Of a DNA stretch of 64,000 nucleotides, positions 6,908-48,279 are shown piece after piece. The stretch's first letter is position 1, and every line of letters starts with the position of its first letter. The notes below the pieces were generated by a model, which was given only the letters and a program-made list of their open reading frames with translations, searched no databases and had not been told where the DNA came from. Origin of the DNA: Paenibacillus sp. FSL H8-0048 (GTDB lineage Bacteria; Bacillota; Bacilli; Paenibacillales; Paenibacillaceae); NCBI RefSeq assembly GCF_038002825.1, contig NZ_JBBODF010000001.1:7006001-7070000 (forward strand). Direction: 5' to 3'. The position numbers and the translations under genes were made by a program.

Positions 6908-6914
6908 TTAACTA

Positions 6915-9035: not shown

Positions 9036-9147
9036 CTCCTGTTCACCCGCTTTTCCCCATATGTAATATAAATATGTCGCTCGCTGCCATTGTGAAATAG
9101 GCAATCGGGAGGTAATTTGCCGCGCATGCTGATACAGTGACAGGCTG

Positions 9148-9167
9148 AAATGAGCATAAATGAGCAA
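9148..9167 (+). promoter_or_regulatory. Tandem 10-nt repeat, distal FruR operator candidate
   Basis: AAATGAGCAT and AAATGAGCAA lie head to tail, one helical turn apart, as expected for a DeoR-family operator. A second pair occurs at 9294. The region 9036-9422 between the divergent genes holds these and a cre site. Confidence 0.5.
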
Positions 9168-9272
9168 GTGATGATCCAATTCTTACAGCAACAGTGAATA
9201 CGGCTGGAATAGCAGGTTTAAATTCATGATTTTTTGGCGGAAAATAAGCAGAGAAAGCCTCTTTACAGTTCA

Positions 9273-9286
9273 TGAAAACGCTGTTA
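9273..9286 (+). promoter_or_regulatory. CcpA catabolite-response element (cre) candidate before fruR
   Basis: TGAAAACGCTGTTA fits the cre consensus TGWAANCGNTNWCA at 13 of 14 positions. It would give glucose repression of the fructose operon. Confidence 0.55.
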
Positions 9287-9293
9287 CAATCAT

Positions 9294-9313
9294 AAATGAG
9301 CACAAATGGTCAA
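9294..9313 (+). promoter_or_regulatory. Tandem 10-nt repeat, proximal FruR operator candidate
   Basis: AAATGAGCAC and AAATGGTCAA form a direct repeat with 10-nt spacing, matching the pair at 9148. It lies about 110 bases before the fruR start. Confidence 0.5.
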
Positions 9314-9422
9314 TATCAATCACAAGTGATTTGAATCCAGTCATCTTATCTTTAAATTCAGTAGTTACTGTATATATAGGAATCCGGCAGCGGGTAGCTG
9401 CACATCCTAAGGAGTGAGCTGC

Positions 9423-10184: not shown

Positions 10185-10223
10185 TGGGATGGGAAGACAA
10201 ACATTATAAATGAGGGATGAATG

Positions 10224-11135: not shown

Positions 11136-11181
11136 ATAACAGAAGTAAGAGGTTCAAGTACATTCGGGGAGTTGAGTCTTG

Positions 11182-13131
11182 ATGAAGATTACAGATTTGA
11201 TGATACAGGAAACAATGATTATGGAGCTCCAGGCTACCACGAAGGAAGGGGTCATTGACGAGCTGATTGCCAGTCTCGCAGCCAGTGGACGCATCACGGA
11301 TGCGAAGCTGTTCAAGGAGAAGATTCTGGAGCGTGAAGCCCAGTCCAGCACGGGCATCGGCGGAGGCATTGCCATGCCACATGCCAAGACGAAGGCCGTC
11401 AAGGAAGCAACGGTGGTATTTGCCAAGAGCAGTGCCGGAATTGATTTTGCCTCCCTGGATGAAGCGCCCGCCCATATATTCTTCATGATCGCCGCGCCGG
11501 ACGGAGCTGGAAATATGCACCTGCGAACACTCGCTGCACTGTCCAGGCTGCTCATTGAAAGCGAATTCATCGAACAGCTTATGGGTGCGAAGACACCTGC
11601 CGAGGTGTCCGCCTTATTTGATGCCAAGCAAGCTGAGACTGAGGCCCGGGCAGAAGCGGAAGCCAAGGCAGCGGAAGTGAAGGCTGCTCCGAAGGCAGCC
11701 GTACCGCAAGCTGAACCGGCACGGATCATTACCGGGAACCCGGATTCACAGAGCTTCGTAGTTGCTGTAACCGCCTGTCCTACTGGAATCGCCCATACCT
11801 TCATGGCGGAGGATGCCCTCAAGAAGAAGGCCAAGGAGATGGGCGTCAATATCCGTGTCGAAACCAACGGCTCGGAGGGTGCGCAGAATGTGCTGACACC
11901 GGAAGAAATCGCCCGGGCCAGCGGGGTCATTATTGCCGCTGACAAGAACGTGGAGATGGAGCGCTTCAGCGGCAAGCCTGTGCTCCAGCGTCCGGTTAGC
12001 GACGGTATCCGCAAGTCAGAGGAGCTGATCCGGATCGCAGTAGCAGGAGATGCACCTATCTACCGCAGCTCTGGACGCAGTGAAGAAGGTTCCACGCCTG
12101 TGAAGTCCGGTTCTATTGGAAGCAAAATCTACAAAGACCTGATGAACGGCATCTCGCATATGCTGCCGTTCGTAGTCGGTGGAGGAATTCTGCTGGCGAT
12201 CTCGTTCCTGATTGAACAGGTGGCCAGCCCCGACAATCCGCTGGTTAAGCTGCTGCAGAGCATCGGCGGCGGTGACGGAGCCTTCCACTTCCTGATTCCT
12301 ATCCTGGCCGGATTTATCGCGATGAGCATCGGCGACCGTCCTGCGCTGATGCCGGGTATGGTCGGCGGTCTGATGGCTCTTAACTCCAATTCAGGCTTCC
12401 TCGGCGGTCTGGCTGCCGGATTCCTGGCCGGTTATGTTGTGGTAATGCTCCGCAGAGCCTTCTCGGGCCTGCCGCGCACACTGGACGGACTGAAGCCGAT
12501 TCTGCTCTATCCTGTATTCAGCCTGCTGATTACCGGCACGATTATGTTCTTCCTGTTCGATCCGTTATTCAGCTGGATCAATGGGGGACTGACCGATGTG
12601 CTTAATAATCTGGGCACCGGCAATAAGATTCTGCTGGGCTTGGTGCTTGGCGGGATGATGGCCATTGATATGGGCGGCCCGTTCAACAAAGCTGCTTATA
12701 CCTTTGCCATCGGCGTGTTTACATCCAGCGGCAACACGAACGGAATGATGATGGCCGCAGTCATGGCCGGAGGGATGGTACCTCCGCTGGCGATTGCCCT
12801 GGCCACCTCGTTCTTCAAGAATAAATTCACGGAGACCGAACGTAAATCCGGTGTAACCAACTATGTGCTGGGCTTGTCGTTCATCACCGAAGGAGCCATT
12901 CCGTTCGCTGCGGCTGATCCGCTGCGGGTGCTTACCTCCTGTATCCTGGGCTCTGCCGTAGCCGGCGGACTTACCCAGCTGTGGAACCTCAACGTTCCCG
13001 CACCGCATGGCGGTGTGTTTGTAGCCTTCCTGTCCAGCAATGCCGCGCTGTTCCTGTTATCTGTGCTGATCGGCTCCGTGATTTCCGGGCTGATCCTGGG
13101 GCTCTGGAAGAAGCCGGTTGAAGCGAAATAA
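11182..13131 (+). CDS. fruA: Fructose-specific PTS enzyme IIABC
   Basis: 649 residues. Domain order: IIA at about 1-145 with the phosphorylated His in AMPHAKTKAV; an Ala/Glu-rich linker; IIB at about 190-285 with the phospho-Cys in TACPTGIAHTFMA; then IIC with about ten membrane helices from 310, including FVVGGGILLAISFLI and AIDMGGPFNKAAY. It imports fructose as fructose-1-phosphate, the FruK substrate. The ATG at 11182 is preferred to the TTG at 11179; GGGGAGTTGAG is upstream. Last gene of the operon. Confidence 0.93.
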   Translation: MKITDLMIQETMIMELQATTKEGVIDELIASLAASGRITDAKLFKEKILEREAQSSTGIGGGIAMPHAKTKAVKEATVVFAKSSAGIDFASLDEAPAHIFFMIAAPDGAGNMHLRTLAALSRLLIESEFIEQLMGAKTPAEVSALFDAKQAETEARAEAEAKAAEVKAAPKAAVPQAEPARIITGNPDSQSFVVAVTACPTGIAHTFMAEDALKKKAKEMGVNIRVETNGSEGAQNVLTPEEIARASGVIIAADKNVEMERFSGKPVLQRPVSDGIRKSEELIRIAVAGDAPIYRSSGRSEEGSTPVKSGSIGSKIYKDLMNGISHMLPFVVGGGILLAISFLIEQVASPDNPLVKLLQSIGGGDGAFHFLIPILAGFIAMSIGDRPALMPGMVGGLMALNSNSGFLGGLAAGFLAGYVVVMLRRAFSGLPRTLDGLKPILLYPVFSLLITGTIMFFLFDPLFSWINGGLTDVLNNLGTGNKILLGLVLGGMMAIDMGGPFNKAAYTFAIGVFTSSGNTNGMMMAAVMAGGMVPPLAIALATSFFKNKFTETERKSGVTNYVLGLSFITEGAIPFAAADPLRVLTSCILGSAVAGGLTQLWNLNVPAPHGGVFVAFLSSNAALFLLSVLIGSVISGLILGLWKKPVEAK

Positions 13132-13149
13132 CCTATCTTGCCTTTCCCT

Positions 13150-13192
13150 GAAACCGCTTGGGAGCAGAGACCCTTCTCTGCCCAGGCGGTTT
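13150..13192 (+). terminator. Terminator of the fru operon
   Basis: GAAACCGC...TGGGCAGAGA-type arms (GCAGAGA with TCTGC, AAACCGC with GCGGTTT) form a long stem ending in T-rich sequence. Confidence 0.8.
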
Positions 13193-13305
13193 CTTTGTCT
13201 TTGAACTCATGAATAATGGCTGTTTTACGCTTGCCCCTCCATTTTGGTGTCTTATTTCGGTATAATTAAAAATATATATACAGAGAAGGCAAAGGAGAAT
13301 GCGAA

Positions 13306-13806
13306 ATGATTCTGCACAGAGGTGAGGTCTTATTCCGCCAGGGAGACGGCGGCCAGAACCTGTTCAAGGTGAAGAGCGGACTGTTCAAGGTCACGAGACT
13401 GCATGAGAACGGGAACATGGTGCTGTTCAACCTGTTATATCCGGGTGAGACTGTTCCGCATCATTCCCTCATTTCGCCGAAGGAGGCGCATGGAACCGCA
13501 GTGGCGATGATGAAAAGTGAGGTCGAGCTGATTCCGGCTGCAGAATGGTACCGGGAGCTGAGGGAGAAGCCTGAGAAGGTGATGGAGATCGCCCTTTTGC
13601 TTCAGGAAAAGGTGCGGTTCATGCAGACGAGGCTCGATCATCTCACCGTTGGAACGCCGGGGGAGCGTATGGCCCTGCTGACCCGCTGGCTGACCGAATA
13701 TTCTCATGGCGCACAGCTTACAGACCTGCTGACACAGGAAGAAATCGGACAATTGATCGGCGTCCGCCGCGAGACGGTCAACCGTCTGCTGAGAAATCAG
13801 GGCTGA
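13306..13806 (+). CDS. Crp/Fnr family regulator, short form
   Basis: 166 residues, shorter than the usual 220-240 because the first strands of the cyclic-nucleotide-binding-like domain are missing: the sequence opens directly at ILHRGEVLFRQGDGG. The C-terminal winged helix is clear (LTQEEIGQLIGVRRETVNRLL). No cysteine cluster, so it is not an oxygen sensor of the Fnr kind. The -10-like TATAAT at 13261 and AAAGGAG give a credible start. Target unknown. Confidence 0.8.
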   Translation: MILHRGEVLFRQGDGGQNLFKVKSGLFKVTRLHENGNMVLFNLLYPGETVPHHSLISPKEAHGTAVAMMKSEVELIPAAEWYRELREKPEKVMEIALLLQEKVRFMQTRLDHLTVGTPGERMALLTRWLTEYSHGAQLTDLLTQEEIGQLIGVRRETVNRLLRNQG

Positions 13807-14126
13807 TTGCTTATTTTTGATGGAAACTGTTTAGAGTGGCCCTTCCGCGTGGTATAATCTATTCAGAACATATCAAACTAAAGAAAGGATCAGGATACCA
13901 TGTGTCCCCGAAGGACGATTCCCCAAAGGACGATTTGGAAACGTTATGATCTGTCTTATACTTAGCTTCCCTGTAGAATGTGCGCGAACCGTTGTTCATT
14001 GACGAAGCCGCTTCTGCGAAGGGAAGGGAGTATTGTATGCGAAGGAGCAACATCTCCTCAGGTACCCCCCTCGTAGAGGCTGGCACGAACGTCTAGCCGC
14101 CATATACGATAAGGGGAGACCGAGTA
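13807..14126 (+). promoter_or_regulatory. Long structured leader of the yitT-like gene
   Basis: The region has a -10-like GGTATAAT near 13850, a 21-codon ORF, a near-repeat (CCCGAAGGACGATT and CCCCAAAGGACGATT at 13907-13935), and pairings such as CTTCCCT (13969-13975) with AGGGAAG near 14020. I could not match it to a known riboswitch. Confidence 0.4.
13900..13965 (+). CDS. Putative 21-residue leader peptide
   Basis: ATG at 13900, 10 bases after AAAGGA, opens a frame starting MCPRRTIPQRTIWKR and stopping at TAG 13963. It is Arg-rich (5 of 21) and precedes a membrane-protein gene by 160 bases. It could be a translation-sensing leader peptide or chance. Confidence 0.3.
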   Translation: MCPRRTIPQRTIWKRYDLSYT

Positions 14127-14813
14127 ATGAGGAAACAAGACAGTGGCATGAGTTTGCCGCTCCGGTTAGCGATTATTTTGACCGGAACACTATTGCTTGC
14201 ATTTACGTATTATCACATTAATTATCAGAACCACTTGACCGAAGGCGGATTCGTGGGATTGTCGCTGCTCGGCAAGTATGTACTGGGGATTTCACCATCA
14301 CTAAGCATCCTGATTTTGGACATTCCGGTACTCATCATCGCAATCATTTTCAAAGGAAAATCATTCGTAGTGAACACCTTCATATCCGTAGTGGCCTTCA
14401 CGGTATTCTACGGGCTGATGGAACGCTATTCCGGCTGGGTTATTGACCTGCAGGATAACTTGCCGGTTGCGGCGCTGTTGTCCGGGGTATTGACAGGTCT
14501 GGGCGCAGGAATGGTCCTGCTGGGCGGCGGGGCGAGCGGCGGGGACGATATTTTGTCCGTGCTGATCAGTGAATGGAAAGGTATTAAGGTAGGAACCGTA
14601 TTTATCCTGATGGATGTAATCGTTCTGGCTTTCTCCCTCTTCTATATGCCGTTAAGAGAAACGCTGTATACGGTGATGGCTGTAGTTGTAGCCGGTTATG
14701 TAATCACTTTTACAACCTCTCTGGGCAGACGGAAGCTGGTTCAGGCACCTAAGATTCCGTCCGCACTTGCCAAGACTCAGGAAGGCACAGTGAATGTGAA
14801 TAATGCAATGTGA
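14127..14813 (+). CDS. YitT/DUF161 family membrane protein
   Basis: 228 residues with about five hydrophobic helices and the family signatures LTEGGFVGLSLLGKYVLGISP, a glycine-rich GLGAGMVLLGGGASGGDDI, and VFILMDVIVLAFSLFYMPL. The usual C-terminal DUF2179 ligand-binding domain is absent. Role unknown; some relatives are linked to spore or metal physiology. The ATG follows GGGGAGACCGAGT. The long leader suggests regulation after initiation. Confidence 0.8.
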   Translation: MRKQDSGMSLPLRLAIILTGTLLLAFTYYHINYQNHLTEGGFVGLSLLGKYVLGISPSLSILILDIPVLIIAIIFKGKSFVVNTFISVVAFTVFYGLMERYSGWVIDLQDNLPVAALLSGVLTGLGAGMVLLGGGASGGDDILSVLISEWKGIKVGTVFILMDVIVLAFSLFYMPLRETLYTVMAVVVAGYVITFTTSLGRRKLVQAPKIPSALAKTQEGTVNVNNAM

Positions 14814-14837
14814 ACTCCGTGAACCACGGGGATGATA

Positions 14838-14876
14838 AAAGGTCAGCGGACTACCGTCCGGCTGGTCTTTTTTTTA
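14838..14876 (+). terminator. Terminator of the yitT-like gene
   Basis: GGTCAGCGGAC pairs imperfectly with GTCCGGCTGGTC across TACC, followed by eight T. Confidence 0.75.
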
Positions 14877-14897
14877 TTTATAATTGCCTGGTACACC

Positions 14898-15155
14898 GGC
14901 ATATGGACCAAAATGTGTGTTAAAAACAATATACTTTGTGCTCGCAATCAGGCACACGGACCAAACGTATGTGAAAAACAGCATACATCGTGCTCGCAAG
15001 CAGACATACGGTCTGAATGTATGTGAAAAACAGTATACATCCTGCTCGCAAGCAGGCAGACGGATCAAATGTATGTGAAAAACAGCATATATTGTGCTTG
15101 CAAGCAGGCAGATGGACCAATGTATGTGAAAAACAGCATACATTGTACTCGTGCT
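14898..15155. repeat. Five tandem 52-nt repeats, each holding a hairpin
   Basis: Units start at about 14898, 14951, 15003, 15055 and 15107 with a 52-53 nt period. Each contains the core ATGTATG-TGAAAAACAG-CATACAT, an inverted repeat with a conserved A-rich loop, joined by GTGCTCGCAAGCAGGCA-type linkers. The outer copies are more diverged. A dispersed copy is at 23517. It is not CRISPR-like, because the spacers are conserved too. It lies between convergent genes. Confidence 0.85.
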
Positions 15156-38999: not shown

Positions 39000-39024
39000 A
39001 TGTGATTGGTTGCACCAATCACAT
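39000..39024. repeat. Perfect 11-bp inverted repeat
   Basis: ATGTGATTGGT and ACCAATCACAT separated by TGC. It lies between the transposase remnant and the riboswitch. Possible operator, terminator without T-tract, or IS relic. Confidence 0.5.
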
Positions 39025-39240
39025 ATCCAGAAGACTGTTGGTATCACCTATAGGTAATAAAATATTTAGATATGCTAGATTGGCATAAAATTTGGGATAC
39101 CCAATCCCCTGAATGATTAATGGAAGCCAGTCTGTAAAGTCCATATTCTAATAGCCTTTTGCCTCCATTAAGATAATTATTGTATTAACAGATGAGTTGT
39201 GGAGAAAATTTATTCACAAATATTTATTATTTTATACTAT

Positions 39241-39271
39241 TTGAAACTATTTACTTTTAAATCAATATAAT
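39241..39271 (+). promoter_or_regulatory. Promoter candidate of the riboswitch-controlled cluster
   Basis: TTGAAA (39241) and TATAAT (39266) with a 19-base spacer, about 30 bases before the riboswitch. Confidence 0.45.
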
Positions 39272-39299
39272 GGTAGTATATTACCAATTAATTGAATAA

Positions 39300-39370
39300 C
39301 TCTCATATATACTCAGGGATATGGCCTGAACGTTTCTACCGGATAACCGTAAATTATCTGACTATGGGGG
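39300..39370 (+). ncRNA. Purine riboswitch aptamer, guanine class
   Basis: All parts of the purine aptamer are present in order: P1 CTCTCAT (39300-39306) with ATGGGGG (39364-39370); P2 TCAGG/CCTGA with loop GATATGG; the junction GTTTCTACC; P3 CGGATAA/TTATCTG with loop CCGTAAA; and CTGACTATG. The specificity base is C (39362), as in guanine rather than adenine switches. It closely follows the xpt pattern. With the terminator at 39471 it should switch the downstream cluster off when guanine or a like purine is abundant. Confidence 0.92.
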
Positions 39371-39470
39371 ATCACATCAATACGAAATCATGCTATATTT
39401 CTTCGCGAGATTTGCATCTATGTTTAATCATCATGTCCTTGTGTCTAAATGAAGTTATGTATTTTATTGA

Positions 39471-39500
39471 ACGGGATTCCTTATGGAATTCCGTTTTTTT
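39471..39500 (+). terminator. Terminator of the guanine riboswitch expression platform
   Basis: ACGGGATTCC and GGAATTCCGT around TTAT, followed by seven T. No gene ends before it, so it acts as a riboswitch-controlled attenuator ahead of the first gene. Confidence 0.85.
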
Positions 39501-39588
39501 GCGCTGTTGTCTGATAAAAAACATTAAATATCTATAGTGATTATTCTTATAACAACGAATTTAGATTAATTAGAAGGAGGTTAGCAAT

Positions 39589-40416
39589 TTGCAAATCGCT
39601 GCAGAACAAATTTTGCTCCAACCGGAGCAGATACTTAATTATTTACATGGTTTGGAACTGAATGATGGTTATGTATATGTTTCAGGTTCGTTAATGGAGG
39701 GTTTTGGAAACCAGACCTCAGATGTTGATGTGTATGTTATTTGTAATGTAATTCCTGAAGATTTTTCCATTGGTTATGATAATTCAGGTGAAAGTTATCT
39801 ATGGGAAGGAAAAACACTGGTACGTAATCTGATTCATGAGCAGGTTCGTTTTGACTTCGAATATTGGACCCTAAAAGATTTTAATAATGCCGTGCGGCAA
39901 CTGCAGGAGTTCGATATTAATAAAATTAATCATATTGAACGTATTTCAGACTCGGATATTGTTCTGCTACACCGTTTAAAGTATGCTAGGCCGCTCATAA
40001 ACATTGAAGGGTTCCTGGAATTTTACTCTACGGTTCCCTTTGAGAATCTTGGATTCTATCAGGCAGTGACCTTGTCTGAGCGGTTTACTTCATTTGTTGA
40101 AGATATTCAAGGAGCTTTATTATCTGAAGATTTTGGTTCAGCCTTTTTTATGGTCCGTAGATTGGTAGAATTGGCAACTGTTTCTCATCTGGCGATTCAC
40201 GGGGAAACGAATCCAAATCTTAAATGGATGTATAGAAAATTATTGCGTTACCAAGAGCAAAGCGAAGATCGTGATCTTTTAGAAAAATATATGTATTTCC
40301 AAACTCATTCGTTTGAACAGAGTTCAGTAAAAGTGTTTATTAAAAAAGCAATGAGATTTGCTCAGGATTTAAACTCTAGAACTCAGCTAGCTCTTCAGGT
40401 AAGACAAAGAGCTTAA
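39589..40416 (+). CDS. Nucleotidyltransferase (pol-beta superfamily)
   Basis: 275 residues from a TTG start 9 bases after AAGGAGG. The nucleotidyltransferase signature is YVYVSGSLMEGFGNQTSDVD (GS...SDVD), giving two metal-binding Asp; a third candidate is in VRFDFEYW. The C-terminal half is helical (RRLVELATVSHLAIHGE). Members adenylylate small molecules, proteins or antibiotics. Nucleotidyltransferases also occur in Paenibacillus lasso-peptide clusters, though of a different length. First gene of the riboswitch-controlled operon; it could modify the peptide or give self-protection. Confidence 0.8.
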   Translation: MQIAAEQILLQPEQILNYLHGLELNDGYVYVSGSLMEGFGNQTSDVDVYVICNVIPEDFSIGYDNSGESYLWEGKTLVRNLIHEQVRFDFEYWTLKDFNNAVRQLQEFDINKINHIERISDSDIVLLHRLKYARPLINIEGFLEFYSTVPFENLGFYQAVTLSERFTSFVEDIQGALLSEDFGSAFFMVRRLVELATVSHLAIHGETNPNLKWMYRKLLRYQEQSEDRDLLEKYMYFQTHSFEQSSVKVFIKKAMRFAQDLNSRTQLALQVRQRA

Positions 40417-40459
40417 CATACAGATTACGTGAATAGTGTATTGAAAGGAGGTGATAGCC

Positions 40460-40525
40460 ATGAAGAAATACAATGCTCCGAAGCTGAAGCAAGTGAAACT
40501 TACTCCAGGCATGATGAATTATTAA
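40460..40525 (+). CDS. Putative RiPP precursor peptide, 21 residues
   Basis: Very strong ribosome site AAAGGAGGTGAT, 4 bases before ATG 40460. The product begins MKKYNAPKLKQ and ends LTPGMMNY. YNAPKL fits YxxPxL, the motif bound by PqqD-type RRE proteins in lasso-peptide leaders. The Thr two residues before Gly fits the lasso cleavage rule, which would leave the core GMMNY. A strong hairpin follows the stop, then an RRE (PqqD-like) gene. Five residues is too short for a lasso ring and no acidic residue is present, so the product must differ. That it is a precursor is inference, but position and motif agree. Confidence 0.72.
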   Translation: MKKYNAPKLKQVKLTPGMMNY

Positions 40526-40540
40526 TGAGATCATACAGGT

Positions 40541-40572
40541 AGAGATACCGGAAATGAACTTCCGGTATCTCT
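40541..40572 (+). promoter_or_regulatory. Strong hairpin between the precursor and pqqD-like genes
   Basis: AGAGATACCGGAA and TTCCGGTATCTCT form a perfect 13-bp stem with a 6-base loop, 15 bases after the precursor stop, without a T-tract. Such hairpins stabilise precursor mRNA or reduce read-through so that peptide exceeds enzymes. Confidence 0.75.
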
Positions 40573-40598
40573 TACTTTCAGAAAGGAAAGTGATAGGG

Positions 40599-40850
40599 AT
40601 GAAGCCAACCAGGGATGTTTTTGTTCAATATAGGGTAATCAAAGGAACCAAATTCATTATGAAGAATTACCATGTATTTGAATTGGATGAAATCGGTGAA
40701 ATCGTCTGGGACGCTTTGGACGGTGAAACTACCGTACAGCAAATTGCAGAGAATATTTCAAATATTTATAATGAGCCTCTAGAAACTGTAGAGCTTGATA
40801 TAAAACAATTTATTAAAGAACTGTTAGAGAAAGAGCTTATTGAGGTTTAA
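40599..40850 (+). CDS. PqqD-family RiPP recognition element protein
   Basis: 83 residues, a single PqqD/RRE domain: YHVFELDEIGEIVWDALDG, TTVQQIAENISNIYN, LDIKQFIKELLEKELIEV. It would bind the leader peptide and hand it to modifying enzymes, like the B1 protein of split lasso systems. The start at 40599 is chosen because the longer frame from 40554 begins inside the hairpin, and GAAAGGA is upstream. No radical SAM, lasso cyclase or B2 protease is in the window, so its enzyme partner must be one of the neighbours or encoded elsewhere. Confidence 0.85.
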   Translation: MKPTRDVFVQYRVIKGTKFIMKNYHVFELDEIGEIVWDALDGETTVQQIAENISNIYNEPLETVELDIKQFIKELLEKELIEV

Positions 40851-40852
40851 TT

Positions 40853-41578
40853 ATGAACAGAACGAAATGGTGTGCGATTGGAGCTGTATATATTCTTCTT
40901 ACAGCAATACTTATTATTCATCCTAGACAAGAAACACTATATTTGTTGATTTTCACGCAAACTCAGTTATTGATTAATCTTAATGCCTACCGTATTCGTG
41001 ATTCTGCCTTTAAAGGAGCGAATTGGGTGAGGAGATCAGTCTACTTTTTTTCGTATTTGATAGCATATAGTTTTTTTTCAAGTCCTTCATTAGAGAAAGG
41101 AAATTTAATCATATCTTTTTCACTTGCTCTGCTGGCGGGATTAATATTTCTGATTCCCAGGTTTGGTGAGATTAAGCCGTTTTACAACAAAGATTTGACA
41201 CTTTTCTTCCCCCCCTTGAGTTTAAATGCAGCTTGTTTGGAGGTGTATTCATACCTCTGTTCCGCAGTCCTGCAGGAATTGTATTACAAAGCATTTGTAA
41301 TAGCTTTATTAATGCCATTGACCGGAGCTGTAGCAGCTGTAATAATCTCCGCTTTACTGTTCGTATTTGATCATCTGGTCCATGCAAGGTCATCAACTTT
41401 CAAGCTTCCTGATTATCTAGCACAATTTGTAATGGGTCTGTGTTCAGGATTGCTCTATGTATACAGTGGGTCGGTGTGGGTTGCTGTTTTGGTGCACTTT
41501 ACCTTTAATGCACCACTTGCTTTCTCCTACTTATATCGGTATGGAGTAACCATGAGAATGAATATGAAGGTGGACTAA
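40853..41578 (+). CDS. CPBP family intramembrane metalloprotease (CAAX/Abi-like)
   Basis: 241 residues, about seven hydrophobic helices. The CPBP motifs are present in weakened form: LQELYYKAF where EExxxR is usual, FVFDHLVHA, and VLVHFTFNAP (HxxxN). Abi-type members serve as bacteriocin immunity or leader-processing proteins. Two bases after the pqqD-like stop. The Glu-Glu to Gln-Glu and Arg to Lys changes make catalysis uncertain; immunity is an alternative. Confidence 0.75.
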   Translation: MNRTKWCAIGAVYILLTAILIIHPRQETLYLLIFTQTQLLINLNAYRIRDSAFKGANWVRRSVYFFSYLIAYSFFSSPSLEKGNLIISFSLALLAGLIFLIPRFGEIKPFYNKDLTLFFPPLSLNAACLEVYSYLCSAVLQELYYKAFVIALLMPLTGAVAAVIISALLFVFDHLVHARSSTFKLPDYLAQFVMGLCSGLLYVYSGSVWVAVLVHFTFNAPLAFSYLYRYGVTMRMNMKVD

Positions 41579-41582
41579 ACGA

Positions 41583-42074
41583 GTGAAGATAAAAGGGGTA
41601 ATAAAGTTAAAGTATGGTGAGAATCCTCATCAGACAGCTTCCTGGGAATGTCATCAAAACGCTATGCTGTCTGAGGGTTCAAATCTTTCGCTAAACGATA
41701 TCAATAATATCAATACAGGGTATTCGCTGCTTCAATATTTTGCACAACCAGCTGCCGTCATAATAAAACATGCGAATATTGCAGGGTTATCAGCGGGCTC
41801 ATCTTTCTCCGTACGGTGGAAGAATGCAACTGCAACCGACCATAGGGCAGCCGAAAATGGTATTTTGATGGTCAATCACCAACTGACAGCAGATCATATG
41901 CGTGAAATCGAAGCTTATCCCTTTGATGGTGTTGCAGCACCCTCCTTTGAAGAAGGAATATCTAGCAGTCTACGGTTGTTGACTATGAGAGCAAGTGTTT
42001 GTTCTAATTTAAGGCGTATTGAAGCCATTGATCTGCTTGATGGCACGAGACTTATTCAAGATACTGCGCAGTGA
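41583..42074 (+). CDS. AICAR-transformylase-like fragment, N-terminal part
   Basis: 163 residues from GTG 41583, corresponding to the start of the second domain of PurH. Recognisable are KLKYGENPHQTASW, NNINTGYSLLQYF, the catalytic Lys-His in AVIIKHANIAG and VAAPSFEEGI. The DPVSAFGG-type segment is changed to DHRAAENG, and the IMP-cyclohydrolase domain is absent. It stops before the SNAIV-type region and overlaps the next ORF by GTGA. Either a decayed purH domain or a repurposed, divergent enzyme half. It lies in a guanine-controlled operon. Confidence 0.65.
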   Translation: MKIKGVIKLKYGENPHQTASWECHQNAMLSEGSNLSLNDINNINTGYSLLQYFAQPAAVIIKHANIAGLSAGSSFSVRWKNATATDHRAAENGILMVNHQLTADHMREIEAYPFDGVAAPSFEEGISSSLRLLTMRASVCSNLRRIEAIDLLDGTRLIQDTAQ

Positions 42075-42370
42075 TCGTAAAGGGGGGGCGCACTTTGGCA
42101 GTGGCTGCCGGACATCAGTATGGAGTCACTGCAGTAGAGCATGCAATCCACAAAGCAATTTATCATGCACATACTACTGATTTTACTCATGCTGTTATAG
42201 CGGTTGATGGTAATTTTCCGCATGAAATTCCGGTTCAACAAATCATAAAAGCGAATATTTCTGCATTCAATCTTCCAGGTTATTCCTCTAATGATGAGGT
42301 GTTGCTTAACCAATTTGAAAAGACCGGTTGTACAATTCTTTTCTCAAAGGAACGGTGCTTCTTGCACTAA
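42071..42370 (+). CDS. AICAR-transformylase-like fragment, C-terminal part
   Basis: 99 residues from GTG 42071. It matches the end of PurH: VKGGRTLAVAAGHQ (usually DGMTVGVGAGQ), AVIAVDGNFPHEIP, SAFNLPGYSSNDEV (usually IIQPGGSIRDEE) and the terminal ILFSKERCFLH (usually VFTGVRHFKH). About 45 residues, including the SNAIV active-site stretch, are missing between the two fragments. Translationally coupled to the preceding ORF. Function doubtful unless both parts assemble. Confidence 0.6.
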   Translation: MIVKGGRTLAVAAGHQYGVTAVEHAIHKAIYHAHTTDFTHAVIAVDGNFPHEIPVQQIIKANISAFNLPGYSSNDEVLLNQFEKTGCTILFSKERCFLH

Positions 42371-42387
42371 AAAAAGTAGGTGAGATC

Positions 42388-43242
42388 ATGACAGACAGCA
42401 TGGAACAAGTCGAAGATATTATCAGGGAGTGCACCAAATTGGGCTATGCTCTTAAACAAGTGGCATGCCTGAATCAAAGATCATTATTTAATGTTCAAGA
42501 AGTTAACGCGTACGGTGAAAGAAGTCTGATGATTGATCTCATACTTGAAGAGCTTTGTGTAAACTTCTTTAAAGGTATTCCATCTATCCGCAATATCATT
42601 AGTGAAGAAAGCGGATATCTCGATTTCAACCGGGGCCGGTTTACTGTCATCCTTGATCCGCTTGACGGAACCAAGAATTTTACTATGGGGTTGTCCTATT
42701 ATGCTTGTTCAATAGCTATCTTAGATGAGAACGGTCATGTACGTGGATCATATGTCATTAATCTGGCTAATGGCCATGAATATACTGCTATTAAAGGAGT
42801 AGGTGCCTTTCGAAACGGACAGCCTATTCATACAATGAAACATCAGCATCTTAATCAATGCGACGGCATTTTTGTTGGATTGGCCAAGACTGAACGTGAA
42901 CTGCAAGCTATGAAAAGAGTAATTCTTCAACTGAAGAGTTACAGGGCTATGGGATGTGCGGCACTGGATCTCTGTTGTGTGGCAATTGGCGCCGCTTCTG
43001 TTTTTGTGGATATTAGTTTTACGGCAAAACTGGTTGATGTTTTGGCCTCCTCCCTGATTCTTGAGGAAGCAGGTGGTCGAGTTACCACTGAAAATGGAAT
43101 TTCCATTACGCAACTGACGGCACAGGGAAACATCAGGAGGATCACGCTTCAGCAGAAATTTTGTACCTTTGGAGCAGCTAATGCTGCTTTACAGGAGGTT
43201 TTAATGGATACATCCAGATTGCAGAGACCTATACAGCAATAA
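42388..43242 (+). CDS. Inositol-monophosphatase-like phosphatase
   Basis: 284 residues. Motifs of the Mg-dependent IMPase/FBPase superfamily: IISEES, LDPLDGTKNFTMG, GCAALDLCCV and VDVLASSLILEEAGG (Asp kept, usual Trp lost). Typical substrates are inositol phosphates, histidinol phosphate or 3'-phosphoadenosine phosphates; the real one is unknown. The start at 42388 follows GTAGGTGAG; the longer frame from 42328 overlaps the preceding ORF. In this cluster it may remove a phosphate from a nucleotide-like intermediate. Confidence 0.8.
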   Translation: MTDSMEQVEDIIRECTKLGYALKQVACLNQRSLFNVQEVNAYGERSLMIDLILEELCVNFFKGIPSIRNIISEESGYLDFNRGRFTVILDPLDGTKNFTMGLSYYACSIAILDENGHVRGSYVINLANGHEYTAIKGVGAFRNGQPIHTMKHQHLNQCDGIFVGLAKTERELQAMKRVILQLKSYRAMGCAALDLCCVAIGAASVFVDISFTAKLVDVLASSLILEEAGGRVTTENGISITQLTAQGNIRRITLQQKFCTFGAANAALQEVLMDTSRLQRPIQQ

Positions 43243-43272
43243 ATACTAATTAACGTTAGAGGAGGTCAATCT

Positions 43273-43938
43273 ATGTTTCCCGCGCTTAATCCGATTTCCA
43301 ACGATGAATATCAGGGCAGACTATTCGTATTTGATGGTGTTGACGGTGCAGGAAAGACCACAATGATCGAAATGCTTGCAGAAAAGCTCCGCAAAGAAGG
43401 CAAGCAGGTGCTATTGACTATGCAGCCAACGCCGGAAATGCGCCAGCTCCATATTTTCAGAACGTATATTTATGAACCTGAAAAACGTCATCTTGTAGAT
43501 TATAACGCCTTGCAGATGTATATGTTCGCAGATCGAAAGCAGCACTATAGAGAAATTATTGAGCCTGCCTTGCAAGAGGGGATTTACGTAATCAGTGATC
43601 GTTATATTTATACAATGCTAGCAACAATGATTGCTCGCGGACATTCCCCGGAGCCGTGGCTTATTGAGCTACTTCCATCTATTCGCCAGCCGCATGTGGC
43701 ATTTCTTATGGATGTCGATCTGGAAACGAGTGTTGAAAGAATACAACAACGCAAAAGCTTTGAAGACTCCTTTGTCGAACGGGAACATCTGTTGAAGAGT
43801 CTGACCAGCTACCGGACTGTGGGTGAACATTTTGGAATGCATATCATTTCATCAGCGAACTTAGGAATTGACGCTGCATTTGCCGAAATCGGAGCTATTG
43901 TGGATAACTTAGAGGCGGTCGATCATGGAGCGTCTTAA
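43273..43938 (+). CDS. Thymidylate-kinase-like nucleotide kinase
   Basis: 221 residues. P-loop FDGVDGAGKTTMIEML, the base-recognition region TMQPTPEMRQL in place of the usual REPGGT, YMFADRKQHYREII, SDRYIYTMLA and a LID-like RIQQRKSFED. The missing REPGG motif suggests a substrate other than dTMP. GAGGAGG precedes the ATG. It overlaps the next gene by 14 bases. Confidence 0.8.
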   Translation: MFPALNPISNDEYQGRLFVFDGVDGAGKTTMIEMLAEKLRKEGKQVLLTMQPTPEMRQLHIFRTYIYEPEKRHLVDYNALQMYMFADRKQHYREIIEPALQEGIYVISDRYIYTMLATMIARGHSPEPWLIELLPSIRQPHVAFLMDVDLETSVERIQQRKSFEDSFVEREHLLKSLTSYRTVGEHFGMHIISSANLGIDAAFAEIGAIVDNLEAVDHGAS

Positions 43939-44464
43939 AAAACTCGTTTCTCAATCTATCGTTTATGAACCCATATCCCGTCGTTCCGGAGGTAGATGTG
44001 ACGTCTACGTGGATTCTGCGCATTTACTATACCATCCAGAGGTTTTAACTCTTGCAGCCGAGAAGATGCTTAGTATTGCGTATGAACGGAGAGCCACGCA
44101 TATTGGAGGCGAAGCAACTTCTGCCTTGCCTCTTATCGGTGCAATTATGACTTTAAGTGTTTTAAGAGGACAACAATTGCATGGCTTCATGATCCGCAAG
44201 AAGCTTAAATCTTACGGAAAATCCAGCCTGATTGAGGGCGATTTGCCTTCAGGCAGCCGTGTGTTGCTGATTGACGATGTGACAGGAAGAGGTTCAGCGG
44301 CTGTAAGATGTTGCAAAATTTTGCGTGAATTAGCGGTTACGATAGTAGGGTATTCATCTATTGTTGATCGTCAAGAACAAGCGGAATTTATTTTGCATGA
44401 GCAGTTCGGAGTAGACTTACTTCCGCTTATTTTAATAGATGAATGTCAGAGGGTGCAACTATGA
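43925..44464 (+). CDS. Orotate-phosphoribosyltransferase-like protein
   Basis: 179 residues. The type I PRTase site is clear: GGEATSALPLIGAI, MIRKKLKSYGKSSLIEG (flexible Lys loop of OPRT) and VLLIDDVTGRGSAAV (PRPP-binding). It would attach a base to phosphoribose. Somewhat shorter than PyrE (about 190-210) and not beside pyrimidine genes. It overlaps both neighbours, so it is translationally coupled. Confidence 0.82.
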   Translation: MERLKKLVSQSIVYEPISRRSGGRCDVYVDSAHLLYHPEVLTLAAEKMLSIAYERRATHIGGEATSALPLIGAIMTLSVLRGQQLHGFMIRKKLKSYGKSSLIEGDLPSGSRVLLIDDVTGRGSAAVRCCKILRELAVTIVGYSSIVDRQEQAEFILHEQFGVDLLPLILIDECQRVQL

Positions 44465-44583
44465 CGGATCAGGCAGTGGGAATTATAGGTGGTAGCGGAC
44501 TTTATCAACTGCTAGAGCAGAATATGTCTTTTAAGGCAACAACATCATATGGGAAACCCTCCTCAGACATACAGTGGTATTAG
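44461..44583 (+). pseudogene. MTA-phosphorylase-like N-terminal fragment
   Basis: 40 residues: AVGIIGGSGLYQLLE and TTSYGKPSSDI match the N-terminus of 5'-methylthioadenosine/purine nucleoside phosphorylase. It stops at TAG 44581. ATGA overlap with the gene before. About 150 central residues of the family are missing. Confidence 0.7.
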
Positions 44584-44813
44584 CTCGGGAACGCGGAATG
44601 TGCTATATGTCCCTCGGAGTCGTTACAGATATGGCTTGTGTACTGAACAGCCAGGTACATCCTGAACTGCCGTCTACCCATGAAGAGGTTGTTACAAGCT
44701 TTGCAACCTCCATAGAGAGAATGATGACAGTTTTGGAAGCTGTGCTGGAAATAACGGAACCCGAACAACACAAGTGCGCTTGTGCTACTTCTTTAAAAGG
44801 AGCTCATGGCTAA
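44574..44813 (+). pseudogene. MTA-phosphorylase-like C-terminal fragment
   Basis: 79 residues from GTG 44574: LARERGMCYMSLGVVTDMA corresponds to LARE-x-G-x-CYASIAVVTDYD of MTA phosphorylase, and KCACATSL to its C-terminal CAC motif. It overlaps the N-terminal fragment out of frame, as expected of an internal deletion. Probably not active as a phosphorylase. Confidence 0.65.
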
Positions 44814-44989
44814 TGGTTAATCAATGGCTTAATGTACGTAGTATGCTTACAGAGGAGCAGCTGCATCAGATCTATAAATATGAAGAGATGGAAGAATACC
44901 TGAAATATCACCCAGCCCAGGTTGTTGAGCATGGTGTATCTAAAGAGCGATGGATCGACATTCCACAGCCGATTCTTCAAAGCTATTAA
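44813..44989 (+). pseudogene. TrpB2-like enzyme, N-terminal piece before an in-frame stop
   Basis: 58 residues: MVNQWLNVRSML...VVEHGVSKERWIDIPQP matches the N-terminus of TrpB2 (EVSxERWIxIPEEV). Starts in a TAATG overlap, 10 bases after AAGGAG. It ends at TAA 44987, directly followed in the same frame by ATG 44990 of the main part. Confidence 0.75.
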
Positions 44990-46030
44990 ATGGTTGGCCG
45001 CCAAACGCCATTGCATCGAGCATATCGCTTGGAACAAGCTTTTGAGACAACCAACAGAATCTATATCAAACGTGAAGATACACTGAGTAATGGAAGTTTC
45101 AAAATCACCTCAGCTCTACCACAGGCTTATTATGGTTCAACGGAGGGGAAAGTGTCTGTAATTACCGAAACAGGTGCGGGTCAGACAGGTGTAGCAGCAG
45201 CACTTGCTGCAAAGTTAACTGGTTTGAATTGCAAAGTCTATATGGTTCGCAGTTCTTATGAATTAAAGAAGTTGAGAAGGCTGATGATGGAAACATATGG
45301 TGCTGAAGTAGTCGCTTCTCCAAGTAGTTTAACTGGAGCAGGAAGAGCATTTATAGCAAAAGGAGAAAATAATGGATCGATTGCTTTTGCAACATCTGAG
45401 GTATTGGAGGAAATAGCACTTTCAAAAGGTAGTATGAACATTGCAGGCTCATTATTTGATTTTGTGCTTACATATAACACTGTTATTGGTTTGGAAGTGA
45501 TTGAACAACTCTCCACTAACCATATTGAACCGGATATTGTGATCGGTTGTGTGGGCGGTGGCAGTTCATTCGGAGGATTTGCTCTGCCTATTGTCGATTA
45601 TTATGGAGATCGGTTGGAACGGGTAATATGTACGGAATCCTCAGCCATACCAACGCTCACCAGGGGGGTATACGACTATGATTATGCAGATGGAGAAGGC
45701 GGAGGCAGTAAGTTGCTTATGTATTCCCTAGGTTACGATTTTAATCCGCCCTCGATGCATGCTTCTGGTTTACGGTATCATGCTGCTGCGCCGATCGTAT
45801 CCCACTTTGTCAATCAAGGCATCATTGAAGCTCAGGCCTTTGATGAGGCGGAGGCCATGGCCTCCGCAGTGGAGTTTGCAAGAATTGAAGGGATTATTGC
45901 TTCTCCAGAAAGCTCCTATACCATATATGGCATTAAGAAAATTTGCAGTCAGTATGAGAATAAAAACATAGTCGCCTTGCTTACAGGAAACGGCCAGTTG
46001 GATCTCGAATCCTACGGCGGCTTTTTATGA
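44990..46030 (+). CDS. TrpB2-like PLP-dependent enzyme (tryptophan-synthase beta family), main part
   Basis: 346 residues. Strong likeness to TrpB2: GRQTPLHRAYRLEQAF, PLP Lys in NGSFKITSALPQAYY (GSHK in TrpB), TETGAGQTGVAAALA, YMVRSSYE, IGCVGGGSSFGGFALP, PTLTRGVYDYDYADGEGGG and MHASGLRYH. The changes GSHK to GSFK and SGHGH to TGNGQ point to a different beta-substitution partner than indole. The first 58 residues are cut off by an in-frame TAA; there is no ribosome site before ATG 44990, so expression would need reinitiation or read-through. It overlaps the aminotransferase gene by ATGA. Confidence 0.8.
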   Translation: MVGRQTPLHRAYRLEQAFETTNRIYIKREDTLSNGSFKITSALPQAYYGSTEGKVSVITETGAGQTGVAAALAAKLTGLNCKVYMVRSSYELKKLRRLMMETYGAEVVASPSSLTGAGRAFIAKGENNGSIAFATSEVLEEIALSKGSMNIAGSLFDFVLTYNTVIGLEVIEQLSTNHIEPDIVIGCVGGGSSFGGFALPIVDYYGDRLERVICTESSAIPTLTRGVYDYDYADGEGGGSKLLMYSLGYDFNPPSMHASGLRYHAAAPIVSHFVNQGIIEAQAFDEAEAMASAVEFARIEGIIASPESSYTIYGIKKICSQYENKNIVALLTGNGQLDLESYGGFL

Positions 46031-46995
46031 TCCGGATGCATCTTAATGAGAACCCGTTAGTTGATCAGAGTTATTGCCGTTATCCTGATCCGGGGTATGA
46101 ACAGCTACGAAGCTTGCTTCGTTTGCAGTTTGGTCTACGCGATACGGAGGTCCTGATCGGTAACGGGTCGACGGAAATTATCTCAACTATTTTTCTATGG
46201 GCTCATTTGAATCACAAGAAAATATTGTTTCCATGGCCATCTTATATATTATACCAAGAGTTAGAGAGGGTTTACAACGCCGATGTAATCAGAATCCCAG
46301 TTGGCCTAGGAGAATGGGATGTAGATCAAATCGCTGAAGTGGTGCCGGAGAATTCGCTATTAATTTTGTGTAATCCCAATAATCCCACGGGCAGATATGT
46401 GACTAGGAAAGATATACTAAGGCTTCTCTCCAGTCTGCCGGACTCAACTACGATTCTATTGGATGAGGCCTATATTGAATATATAGATGTACGTGAAATA
46501 GGAGATGATTGTTTTACAATAGATGAGTTACTATATTCGAATTGTATTATCGTACGGACATTTTCTAAATTTTATGCTCTTGCAGGTTTACGGATTGGAT
46601 ATGCCCTGCTTCATCCTGAATTATTCAGAACTTTACGCCCTTATCTGCAATTATGGAATGTGAATATTCCGGCTATTGAAAGGGCGGTAGTTTGTCTCCA
46701 AGATAAGAATCGTTATATGGAAGGCAGGCAGCAGACTATACAATTGCGGGAGATCCTTCAAACAGCTCTTGAACAAGCAGGATTTTTCGTATTACCTTCA
46801 CAGACCAACTTTTTATGTTGTTCACATCCACAGATAGATTTGTGGACAGCAAACTGGAAAAAAGAAGGTTATTATGTTAATCAATTAATTCCATATGCTG
46901 ATTCTGAACTGAGATCCTATGTCAGGTTATCGGTAGAAGACACCAAGGTTATGAAGAGGTTTATAGAGCTTATTAAACAAGAGCGGAGGATATGA
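46027..46995 (+). CDS. HisC-like class I/II aminotransferase, compact form
   Basis: 322 residues against about 350-360 for HisC. N-terminal HLNENPLVDQSYCRYPDPG lacks the stretch after NENP and the preceding helix. PLP site: GNGSTEII, NPNNPTGRYV, LDEAYIEYID and Lys in RTFSKFYALAGLRIGYA. It interconverts amino and keto groups; together with the TrpB2-like protein it may make or modify an amino-acid unit. ATGA-coupled on both sides. Confidence 0.82.
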   Translation: MIRMHLNENPLVDQSYCRYPDPGYEQLRSLLRLQFGLRDTEVLIGNGSTEIISTIFLWAHLNHKKILFPWPSYILYQELERVYNADVIRIPVGLGEWDVDQIAEVVPENSLLILCNPNNPTGRYVTRKDILRLLSSLPDSTTILLDEAYIEYIDVREIGDDCFTIDELLYSNCIIVRTFSKFYALAGLRIGYALLHPELFRTLRPYLQLWNVNIPAIERAVVCLQDKNRYMEGRQQTIQLREILQTALEQAGFFVLPSQTNFLCCSHPQIDLWTANWKKEGYYVNQLIPYADSELRSYVRLSVEDTKVMKRFIELIKQERRI

Positions 46996-48215
46996 TGAGA
47001 AGAATCTTCAAAATACTCTCATACTATGAGGTAGCAATATGGATACGTTTTTTCGGCTCGGCTATTACATCAATTACAAATTTTATGCTTCGTCCGTTTC
47101 TCATCTTATATCTATATGACCGTTTGGAAGGAACAGTTATAGTACCGTTATTGATTGTAGGTCTCCAGCCGCTAGCCAGTATTGCAGTAAGTTTAATAGG
47201 CGGAGGAATTTCAGATCGTTTTGGGCGTAAGCCAGTGATGGTAGCTTCATTACTGGTTCAGGCTATGACGATGACCGGATTTATATTTGCGGATTCAGTT
47301 TGGGCATTTGCAATTCTCAGCTTTTTGAACGGATTTGGTGTGCCACTCTTTGTTCCTGCAGCAAATGCACAAATTGCCGATATTGTACCGCCGGATAAAA
47401 GGGCCGAGGTATTTGCCTTGCTGCATACTGCATTTAACGTAGGTCCAGCCATTGGACCTTTACTTGGATTGGCGGTATTTGCTTGGAATCAGGCTGTTGT
47501 ATTTGCAATTGCATCTGCTGCATTTGGTCTATATACTTTAATTGTATGGTGGAAAATCCCCGAGACTTTACCGCAAAGGGAAGTAATAAATATTAAACAA
47601 AAGGTTCCAAGATTGTCTTGGATAGACAATAAAAAACTTTATCTTTTTACACTTTTCGCCGTTCCCGTCGGTTTACTTTATTCGCAGGTTGAAACGACGC
47701 TTCCTCTTCACCTTAAAGATAACTTTGTAAATCATACGTCAATTCTAGCAGTGCTGTTCACCGTAAATGCTGTTCTGGTAATGAGCTCCAATATCTGGAT
47801 TGCTAAGAAATCAGAGAATAAGTCCTCTAAAAATATGATAACTATAAGCTATATTTTGTTTGCACTGGTCAGCTTTGGATATGGTTATTCACCAAGCTTT
47901 CTTACACTCATTATTGTTGAAATCATCTTCTCCTTATCTGAAATGATTGGAATTAATCACTTGCAGAAATATGTATCTTTAATGGCTCCTTTAGATAAAC
48001 GCGGACGATATTTCTCCATATTCGGAATGTATATGCAGATTCCCCGTTTGATTGGTCCCACTATTTGCGGTTTTGTTTTAGCTAAATTTGGTGGGGGAGT
48101 TATGTTCCTCCTTCTAAGCGCTTTACTCCTGCTAGGAGGTTTAATGCAGTATATACATATGGGTAAGTCTAATCAACAGGGAAATCAAGCGAGCAATATG
48201 ATAAACGTTTCGTAA
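46992..48215 (+). CDS. MFS transporter, likely product exporter
   Basis: 407 residues with twelve membrane helices; the DHA-type loop GGGISDRFGRKPVMVASLL is present, as are GVPLFVPAANAQIADIV and GPAIGPLLG. Last gene of the cluster, overlapping the aminotransferase by four bases and followed by a strong terminator. Its place suggests export of the cluster product, which is inference. Confidence 0.85.
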   Translation: MMRRIFKILSYYEVAIWIRFFGSAITSITNFMLRPFLILYLYDRLEGTVIVPLLIVGLQPLASIAVSLIGGGISDRFGRKPVMVASLLVQAMTMTGFIFADSVWAFAILSFLNGFGVPLFVPAANAQIADIVPPDKRAEVFALLHTAFNVGPAIGPLLGLAVFAWNQAVVFAIASAAFGLYTLIVWWKIPETLPQREVINIKQKVPRLSWIDNKKLYLFTLFAVPVGLLYSQVETTLPLHLKDNFVNHTSILAVLFTVNAVLVMSSNIWIAKKSENKSSKNMITISYILFALVSFGYGYSPSFLTLIIVEIIFSLSEMIGINHLQKYVSLMAPLDKRGRYFSIFGMYMQIPRLIGPTICGFVLAKFGGGVMFLLLSALLLLGGLMQYIHMGKSNQQGNQASNMINVS

Positions 48216-48226: not shown

Positions 48227-48279
48227 CCTCTTTTGAATTATCTGTTTTATCAGGACAGATAATTCAAAAGAGGTTTTTT
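48227..48279 (+). terminator. Terminator of the riboswitch-controlled cluster
   Basis: Perfect 19-bp arms (48227-48245 and 48255-48273, starting CCTCTTTTG), then six T. Confidence 0.93.

Follow-up and report, generated by a model that had tools for sequence, protein, structure and literature searches.

A 21-residue precursor gene of Paenibacillus within a family of probably RRE-guided tiny-peptide clusters that carry an ANT-like nucleotidyltransferase

A tiny precursor gene in a cyclase-free operon

The micro-ORF at positions 40460-40525 of the window (the whole 64,000 nt stretch of the Paenibacillus sp. FSL H8-0048 genome analysed here) is a genuine RiPP precursor gene within a family of RRE-guided tiny-peptide clusters, and we lean towards the view that in this RiPP family a nucleotidyltransferase (NTase) puts an unusual nucleotide on the tiny peptide, in a microcin C-like manner but by another enzyme. 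The gene runs from ATG to TAA on the + strand, encodes 21 residues (MKKYNAPKLKQVKLTPGMMNY) and has a strong Shine-Dalgarno (SD) sequence on its 5′ side (AAAGGAGGTGA, 40444-40454, + strand). It is located 43 bp 3′ of the NTase gene (39589-40416) and 73 bp 5′ of the RRE gene (40599-40850), and folding detected a 13-bp perfect hairpin 3′ of its stop codon, between the precursor and RRE genes (40541-40572, + strand, z -4.92). The peptide contains T-P-G and YNAPKL, the latter corresponding to the YxxPxL motif of lasso-type leaders, a likeness that concerns the motif only. It can be divided provisionally into a leader of about MKKYNAPKLKQVKL and a core region of about TPGMMNY, with the border between both placed approximately. 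The first-pass annotation had called this ORF, its YNAPKL motif and the Thr before Gly correctly, if with understatement, and had noted a stand-alone RRE beside the peptide, which is the PqqD-family protein of 83 aa encoded at 40599-40850 (+ strand, Pfam PqqD, PF05402, 1e-13). The best NCBIfam match of this RRE was the lasso PqqD model, with 34.1 bits and thus below its 80-bit cut-off.

All genes from the NTase through the MFS transporter are on the + strand. The RRE gene is followed by genes for a CPBP/Rce1-like membrane protein (40853-41578, PF02517 1e-13), an inositol-monophosphatase-like phosphatase (42388-43242, PF00459 1e-30), a thymidylate-kinase-like nucleotide kinase (TMK; 43273-43938, PF02223 2e-26, TIGR00041 above cut-off), a PyrE-like phosphoribosyltransferase (PRT; 43925-44464, TIGR00336 6.5e-25 with 87.9 bits, below cut-off, and no Pfam match), a HisC/CobD-like PLP aminotransferase or decarboxylase (46027-46995, PF00155 3e-36, TIGR01141 1e-56 below cut-off) and an MFS transporter, the presumed exporter (46992-48215, PF07690 2e-50), with an intrinsic-terminator-like site at the operon end (48227-48273, + strand). 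Scans of the operon proteins with Pfam and NCBIfam returned no asparagine-synthetase-like cyclase, no transglutaminase-like B2 protease and no ThiF protein, which bears out the absence of a cyclase and a transglutaminase-like protease claimed in the first-pass annotation; its view of a lasso-like leader with an RRE partner, used outside lasso chemistry, is supported. The G+C content is 33-45% across 39000-48000, versus 41-55% in most flanking intervals. A flank comparison of 16 genomes, including the own genome, found the upstream flank in 4 of them and the downstream one in 14, and resolved no insertion point.

Three genes of the window operon are damaged when compared with the colinear locus of Bacillus sp. 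03113 (L033, 48-73% identity), where the genes are open and family matches were obtained for the phosphorylase, PurH-domain and PLP proteins. The AICAR-formyltransferase-like gene, corresponding to the C-terminal part of PurH (41583-42370, + strand, PF01808 2e-22), is broken into two ORFs (41583-42074 and 42071-42370, the second matching NF002049 at 5e-11), with approximately 36 residues missing. The nucleoside-phosphorylase gene is a remnant (44461-44813, + strand; L033 homologue PF01048 2e-38) from which approximately 138 central residues are absent, and the reading frame of the TrpB2-like PLP enzyme (44813-46030, + strand; NF009057 1e-118 for 44990-46027), which shares 73% identity with its intact L033 homologue, is interrupted by a stop at 44987-44989. 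The NTase, micro-ORF, RRE, CPBP, kinase, phosphatase, PRT, aminotransferase and MFS genes are open. As judged from these lesions, the window copy may no longer yield the full product, or may yield a simpler one.

Distribution of the cluster and its micro-ORFs

An RRE search among 150 relatives gave matches at 31 places in 28 genomes, and at three of these, the own locus and two others (G032 with 44% and G051 with 34% identity), NTase, RRE and CPBP genes occur together. The remaining 28 places have 29-35% identity, and in the 27 of them that were fetched (3.2 kb, tblastn) there was no NTase homologue and no CPBP homologue; of six that were inspected, five look paeninodin-like, including L004 with a weak HPr-kinase match and a Transglut_core3 B2 protein, and one (L026) looks LPP-like. 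Scanning of genome contigs with the NTase alignment found five loci, two of them already known, and plasmid searches found eight records with NTase relatives and later two further Streptomyces records, while the RRE search of plasmids gave no match. The NTase profile matched 10/392 genomes of the order, 10/394 of the family and 1/398 of the phylum, with the own genome counted in and the sole match among the 398, and hence the NTase distribution is rare and patchy. We compared 22 loci (the window, L031-L034, L036, L038-L045, L056-L061, L070 and L071), after dropping L035 and L037 as duplicates of L031 and L032; L046-L055 and L062-L069 are short segments from loci that the count already includes.

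A micro-ORF of 18-24 residues with the YxxP motif was found in 16 of the 22 NTase loci. An RRE was called in 17 loci, by HMMs built for the analysis, and 16 of these combine it with a short precursor ORF carrying the common leader motif, the exception being L043; none of the five loci lacking an RRE (L039, L042, L044, L045 and L058) has a micro-ORF in the available stretch. This association has a Fisher p of 2.3e-4 over the 22 loci, a value that is post hoc and derives from loci which are not independent. The distance between micro-ORF and RRE reaches approximately 8.5 kb in L041 (Nonomuraea), where the micro-ORF is also approximately 6 kb away from the NTase gene, and approximately 4.6 kb in L070. 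When 20 NTase loci (405,101 bp) were scanned strictly, for ORFs of 16-27 aa with an SD and an early Y..P, 14 micro-ORFs were returned, at most one per locus and always in the same orientation as the NTase gene, versus a mean of 1.05 and a maximum of 3 in 20 first-order shuffles, which is a post-hoc control, as the pattern was derived from peptides already seen. The micro-ORFs of L070 and L071 were added from a looser scan of eight loci, of which 14 other ORFs were not accepted. In L039, L042, L043, L044, L045 and L058 there was no YxxP micro-ORF with an SD, and the few chance-like ORFs lacking an SD were not accepted. These genes are short enough for gene finders to miss, and no micro-ORF is entered in the (incomplete) PLSDB gene tables for L038, L040, L070 and L071.

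All micro-ORF peptides start with Met and 0-3 residues, followed by Y..P, and the YxxP leader motif is kept across Bacillota and Actinomycetota. Their C-terminal ends fall into groups. The GMxN group consists of the window peptide (...LTPGMMNY), L033 (...LAPGMQNA), Brevibacillus panacihumi L036 (...LLAGMENA), P. massiliensis L034 (...VSGMVNV) and P. sp. PastM-3 L031 (...VNGMENR), with the Asn always present and penultimate and the last residue being Y, A, A, V or R. The ends of the other 11 peptides differ: an ASQK group (P. tritici L032 ...TAPAASQKL, L056 ...ASPAASQKA, L057 ...AAPKASQKV), a PAAL group (L059 ...PAALTHEA, L060 ...PAALMHEQ, L061 ...PAALAVESLPY), a TVLRD type on Streptomyces plasmids (L070 ...GTVLRDNA, L071 ...GTVLRDTA), and the ungrouped ends of L038 on a Parageobacillus plasmid (...TAVIINV), L040 on a Corynebacterium plasmid (...GAIMAWPG) and L041 (...GAVIID). 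The core regions would appear to share one pattern, in which a small residue precedes, by about four places, a conserved N, K, E, W or D, after which come 0-4 variable tail residues. When the five GMxN genes are compared in their 10 pairs, differences number 54/31/88 at codon positions 1/2/3, and such an excess at third positions is that of a coding sequence.

The first-pass annotation had forecast that the YxxP leader and a C-terminal Asn-Tyr would be invariant. The leader does recur and the Asn is kept throughout the GMxN peptides, but the Tyr varies among them and the other groups end differently, and hence Asn-Tyr was rejected as an invariant. It had also named homologous loci lacking the ORF, or with random sequence in its place, as evidence against a precursor; such loci are restricted to L043 among those with an RRE, together with all five that lack an RRE.

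A hairpin 3′ of the micro-ORF (z -2.9 to -5.2) was found in 9 of 14 folded loci and was absent after the micro-ORF in L032, L056, L057, L040 and L041; in the first three of these the micro-ORF is located 3′ of the RRE gene. In the Brevibacillus locus L036 there are two NTases and three RRE genes (1299-1616, 6247-6531 and 10986-11237), as well as YxxP ORFs at 1122-1271, 7305-7418 and 10855-10914 (49, 37 and 19 aa), each within 0.8 kb of an RRE gene, which possibly represent three precursor systems side by side. On the Streptomyces plasmids, the YxxP micro-ORF (ends VLRDNA and VLRDTA) is immediately 5′ of an asnB gene (9113-11455 of L070, 6977-9302 of L071), with diiron oxygenase, MFS, RRE and NTase genes nearby, and the two loci perhaps form a distinct branch. 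Asparagine-synthase genes near the micro-ORF were also seen in L041 and L043 among the genes scanned, which covered part of some loci, and thus actinobacterial members may do other chemistry.

The nucleotidyltransferase

The NTase (39589-40416, + strand, 275 aa) matched no Pfam family at 1e-3. Its AlphaFold2 model (6 rows, mean pLDDT 88) predicts a minimal NTase domain with a helical bundle, resembling ANT enzymes; Foldseek gave kanamycin nucleotidyltransferase / ANT(4'') as best match (E 8.8e-6, TM 0.55), and VIA aligned the same structure over 229 residues with Z 12.0 and rmsd 4.7, at 7-10% identity in the top five rows, a comparison that bears on the listed structural families only. In sequence searches of the PDB only the NTase core matched (best 1ylq, 5.8e-4). 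Residues G33, D45 and D47 are conserved in 22/22 NTases, and position 89 holds an acidic residue in all of them (19 D, 3 E); by model and alignment, the enzyme has the fold and the GS...D-x-D...D active site of the ANT-fold superfamily. It shares fold and catalytic motif with ANT(4'), ANT(4'') and LinB, but has only 7-14% identity to them, and sits in a biosynthetic operon with an RRE and a precursor. ANT enzymes move the AMP of ATP onto a hydroxyl, their substrates being small molecules, and nucleotidylation is thus the natural reading for an ANT-like NTase, with an acceptor that we infer.

In 14 of the 17 RRE loci the NTase gene is immediately 5′ of the micro-ORF or the RRE gene. The NTase tree supports the ASQK (96/98), PAAL (100/99) and TVLRD (98/94) sets; within the GMxN set, the window and L033 group with support (99/98), L031 and L034 group weakly (80/66), and L036 is unplaced and apart, and hence GMxN as a single supported NTase clade was rejected. 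Since 5/22 NTase loci have neither RRE nor micro-ORF, the NTase is not restricted to clusters with this type of peptide.

Nucleotide enzymes and a proposed pathway

The genes around the NTase are rich in nucleotide enzymes, of differing kinds. A TMK-like protein was found with our own HMM in 13 of the 22 NTase loci and not in the other 9, with the caveats that the L041 protein has no Pfam match and that of L070 lies within a longer ORF. PurH-, PyrE- and PNP-like proteins occur in the window and L033, and nucleoside diphosphate kinase (NDK) was found by HMM in L058 and L059 and is annotated in L043 and L044. L036 encodes two ThyA-like proteins, NUDIX, TMK, CYTH and LysA-like proteins and a QueA-like protein (below cut-off), L034 two B12-radical SAM proteins and a third radical SAM protein, and L032 radical SAM and U32 proteins. 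In L042, which lacks an RRE, there are pyrF, tmk and nucleoside phosphorylase genes. The LarC, LarB and LarE proteins of L031 are each above their NCBIfam cut-off; their genes (2943-7400) are found with DUF362, TMK, PfkB and HAD genes, divergent from the NTase-micro-ORF-RRE operon. They are a possible source of a nickel-pincer-type nucleotide building block, or possibly an ordinary neighbouring lar operon, as it is their position, with the TMK gene within the lar operon, that points to these and other flanking genes as cluster members. In L058, where no RRE and no micro-ORF were found, the NTase gene is near genes for GTP cyclohydrolase I, PTPS/QueD-like and QueE-like proteins and NDK (7973-15015); the QueD-like and QueE-like proteins are below cut-off, and together with GTP cyclohydrolase I represent the start of 7-deazapurine synthesis.

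We propose that the RRE binds the YxxPKLKxVK leader and offers the final 5-8 residues of the peptide to the neighbouring NTase. Other cluster enzymes would make the base and sugar of an unusual NTP, and the thymidylate-kinase-like enzyme would phosphorylate them, joined in some loci by the nucleoside diphosphate kinase, after which the NTase would move the NMP part onto the peptide, most likely at or beside the residue that each group conserves (Asn in GMxN). Trimming would remove the leader and/or the variable C-terminal tail, perhaps with the CPBP protein, and the product would be exported by an MFS or ABC-2 exporter, an exporter being a frequent partner of these loci. Peptide-RRE binding, the nucleotide on the peptide, its site, the order of steps and the product's activity are what we infer from this arrangement.

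The CPBP protein was found in 14/17 RRE loci, and not in L070, L071 and L043. In 13 aligned CPBP proteins E142, F170, H174, H215 and N219 are invariant, while the first Glu of the EExxxR motif is replaced by Gln in all five GMxN loci and kept in the other eight. This Glu is presumably catalytic in Rce1, in which case the CPBP proteins of the GMxN loci, that of the window included, may be no ordinary proteases, their proteolytic function having possibly been lost or changed. A sequence search for a solved homologue gave chance matches only.

If the nucleotide reading is true, these clusters represent a second, RRE-guided peptide-nucleotide route, with a different transferase and many nucleotide gene sets, and thus a Trojan-horse-like family open to genome mining. 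The family is searchable by its signature of NTase, RRE and YxxP micro-ORF with SD, often with a hairpin. A more far-reaching version, possible though less likely than not, is a new peptide-nucleotide class in which the RRE hands 18-24 aa precursors to the ANT-like NTase, which would install cluster-specific nucleotides (PurH/PyrE-derived, ThyA-modified or even LarB/C/E nickel-pincer-like), and in which the identity of the conserved residue (N, K, E, D or W) preceding the short C-terminal tail would determine the aminoacyl-tRNA synthetase or other target that is hit.

Hints at such a target come from two relatives. The Corynebacterium glyciniphilum plasmid locus L040 (6269-8180) contains divergent trpS (TrpRS) and GNAT genes next to a micro-ORF with Trp in its core, and the pair is a candidate for self-immunity; L039, which has no RRE, encodes AlaRS, an AlaRS-related protein, an ATP-grasp protein and an S66 peptidase. 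An S66 peptidase and a GNAT confer resistance to microcin C, and both loci hint at an aminoacyl-nucleotide product. A general self-immunity by aminoacyl-tRNA synthetases was rejected: six genomes scanned for PF00152 synthetases have three each, none within 60 kb of the cluster, and three PAAL-type genomes have no PF00749 synthetase near the cluster.

Alternative explanations

A different use of the peptide is possible, if unlikely, namely as a carrier on whose C-terminal end a nucleoside-like or amino-acid-like molecule is built and then cut off, giving a product with little or no peptide, as in the pearlins, where a small molecule is built on the C-terminal end of a peptide and subsequently cut off. 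Very short ends that differ by group, each combining one conserved residue with a tail that varies, would suit such a role, and the TrpB2-like, HisC-like PLP, LysA-like and radical SAM proteins could act on a bound residue. However, there is no LanB-like peptide-aminoacyl-tRNA ligase among the scanned proteins, which represent part of the genes of the loci, and a carrier would still require the RRE and the NTase to act on the peptide.

We consider it improbable that the NTase modifies a small-molecule product, for self-protection or tailoring as in ANT resistance, with peptide and RRE serving another step. Its ANT-like model and the five NTase loci in which no RRE or micro-ORF was found, including L042 and L058 with their nucleotide enzymes, are consistent with this, whereas the position of the NTase gene directly 5′ of the micro-ORF or RRE gene and the coincidence of three core types with supported NTase clades argue for an action on the peptide.

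The preferred reading, a nucleotide on an RRE-guided peptide, also has to be weighed against a translated attenuator or signalling peptide, in which case the ORF would be no RiPP precursor. In most folded loci a strong hairpin comes after the tiny ORF, as would suit an attenuator, and CPBP proteins also process bacterial signal peptides. Conservation of YxxP across two phyla, the tie of the ORF to the RRE, and the position of the ORF after the RRE gene with no hairpin in L032, L056 and L057 make this very doubtful.

Comparison with known peptide systems

Microcin C (MccA/MccB) resembles the window locus in its tiny ribosomal peptide, nucleotidyltransferase, MFS export and, as presumed for the window, a nucleotide at or close to a conserved Asn, and S66 peptidase, aminoacyl-tRNA synthetase and GNAT genes are near some relatives of the locus. 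The differences are that the window operon is devoid of a ThiF-type MccB, has an ANT-like NTase, and uses an RRE and a leader of approximately 10-14 residues. The Asn, C-terminal in microcin C precursors, is penultimate in all five GMxN peptides and kept in some groups only, and the nucleotide genes are diverse. The microcin C kind has a ThiF-like MccB, with adenosine or cytosine nucleotides found so far (PMC9239234). Membership of the microcin C kind was rejected, as there is no ThiF in the window operon. Of the microcin C analogy drawn in the first-pass annotation, the tiny peptide with a nucleotide theme stands, and is strengthened by the neighbouring nucleotide enzymes and the ANT-like NTase gene directly upstream, neither of which was cited there; the C-terminal part of the analogy is imperfect, with a penultimate Asn, other residues kept in other groups and no ThiF-type MccB.

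The linear polyphosphorylated peptides (LPP, Popov et al. 2026) share with the window locus their occurrence in Bacillota, a discrete RRE, a YxxP leader motif, a membrane leader peptidase and an NTP transferase (PMC13381572). They are described with a SipW-like SpI, an HprK kinase and an MsbA-like exporter, as well as precursors of 35-200 aa with YxxPxVLxHQxIxFETxxS (PMC13381572). No SpI-type signal peptidase, HprK kinase or MsbA-like exporter is encoded in the window operon, whose peptide of 21 aa has YNAPKLKQVKLTPGMMNY instead. Membership was rejected, since the defining enzymes and precursor motif are absent and the transferase of the LPP-like locus L026 is NTP_transf_5 (PF14907), which gave no alignment to the window NTase. 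L026, from a genome of the same order, encodes a precursor with a YxxPxVLxHQxIxFET-like motif, an NTP_transf_5 protein and an RRE (165-1746). No description of the gene set was recognised in the open-licence PMC literature, a collection that has most subscription papers and preprints outside it.

The paeninodin and pseudomycoidin lasso peptides share the YxxPxL leader, a discrete RRE and, in some clusters, an annotated nucleotidyltransferase; in contrast, the window operon has no B2 and no macrolactam synthetase, and its core is much shorter, with no Asp/Glu at the ring position. A lasso core needs Asp/Glu at position 7-9 and sufficient length, and the predicted window core is GMMNY. A decayed or truncated lasso cluster is scarcely credible. 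In its favour are YxxPxL, the Thr at -2, the sub-threshold RRE match, the paeninodin-like locus in the own genome and the two Streptomyces relatives whose micro-ORF adjoins an asparagine-synthase gene. These points are outweighed by an operon lacking B2 and cyclase, neither of which stood out among the listed ORFs of the Bacillota loci either, by the presence of the Thr in 1/5 GMxN genes only, by the 27 other RRE places lacking an NTase or CPBP homologue within 3.2 kb and, largely, by the conservation of a cluster that has no cyclase; a lasso remnant was accordingly rejected, the micro-ORF being conserved. According to two reports, PsmN adds hexoses to a phosphoserine (PMC8498205, PMC9266682). 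The paeninodin-like lasso locus of the own genome (L030, C1:3597092-3600280) has a kinase, B1 and B2 as judged by eye, and two RRE systems thus coexist in this Paenibacillus.
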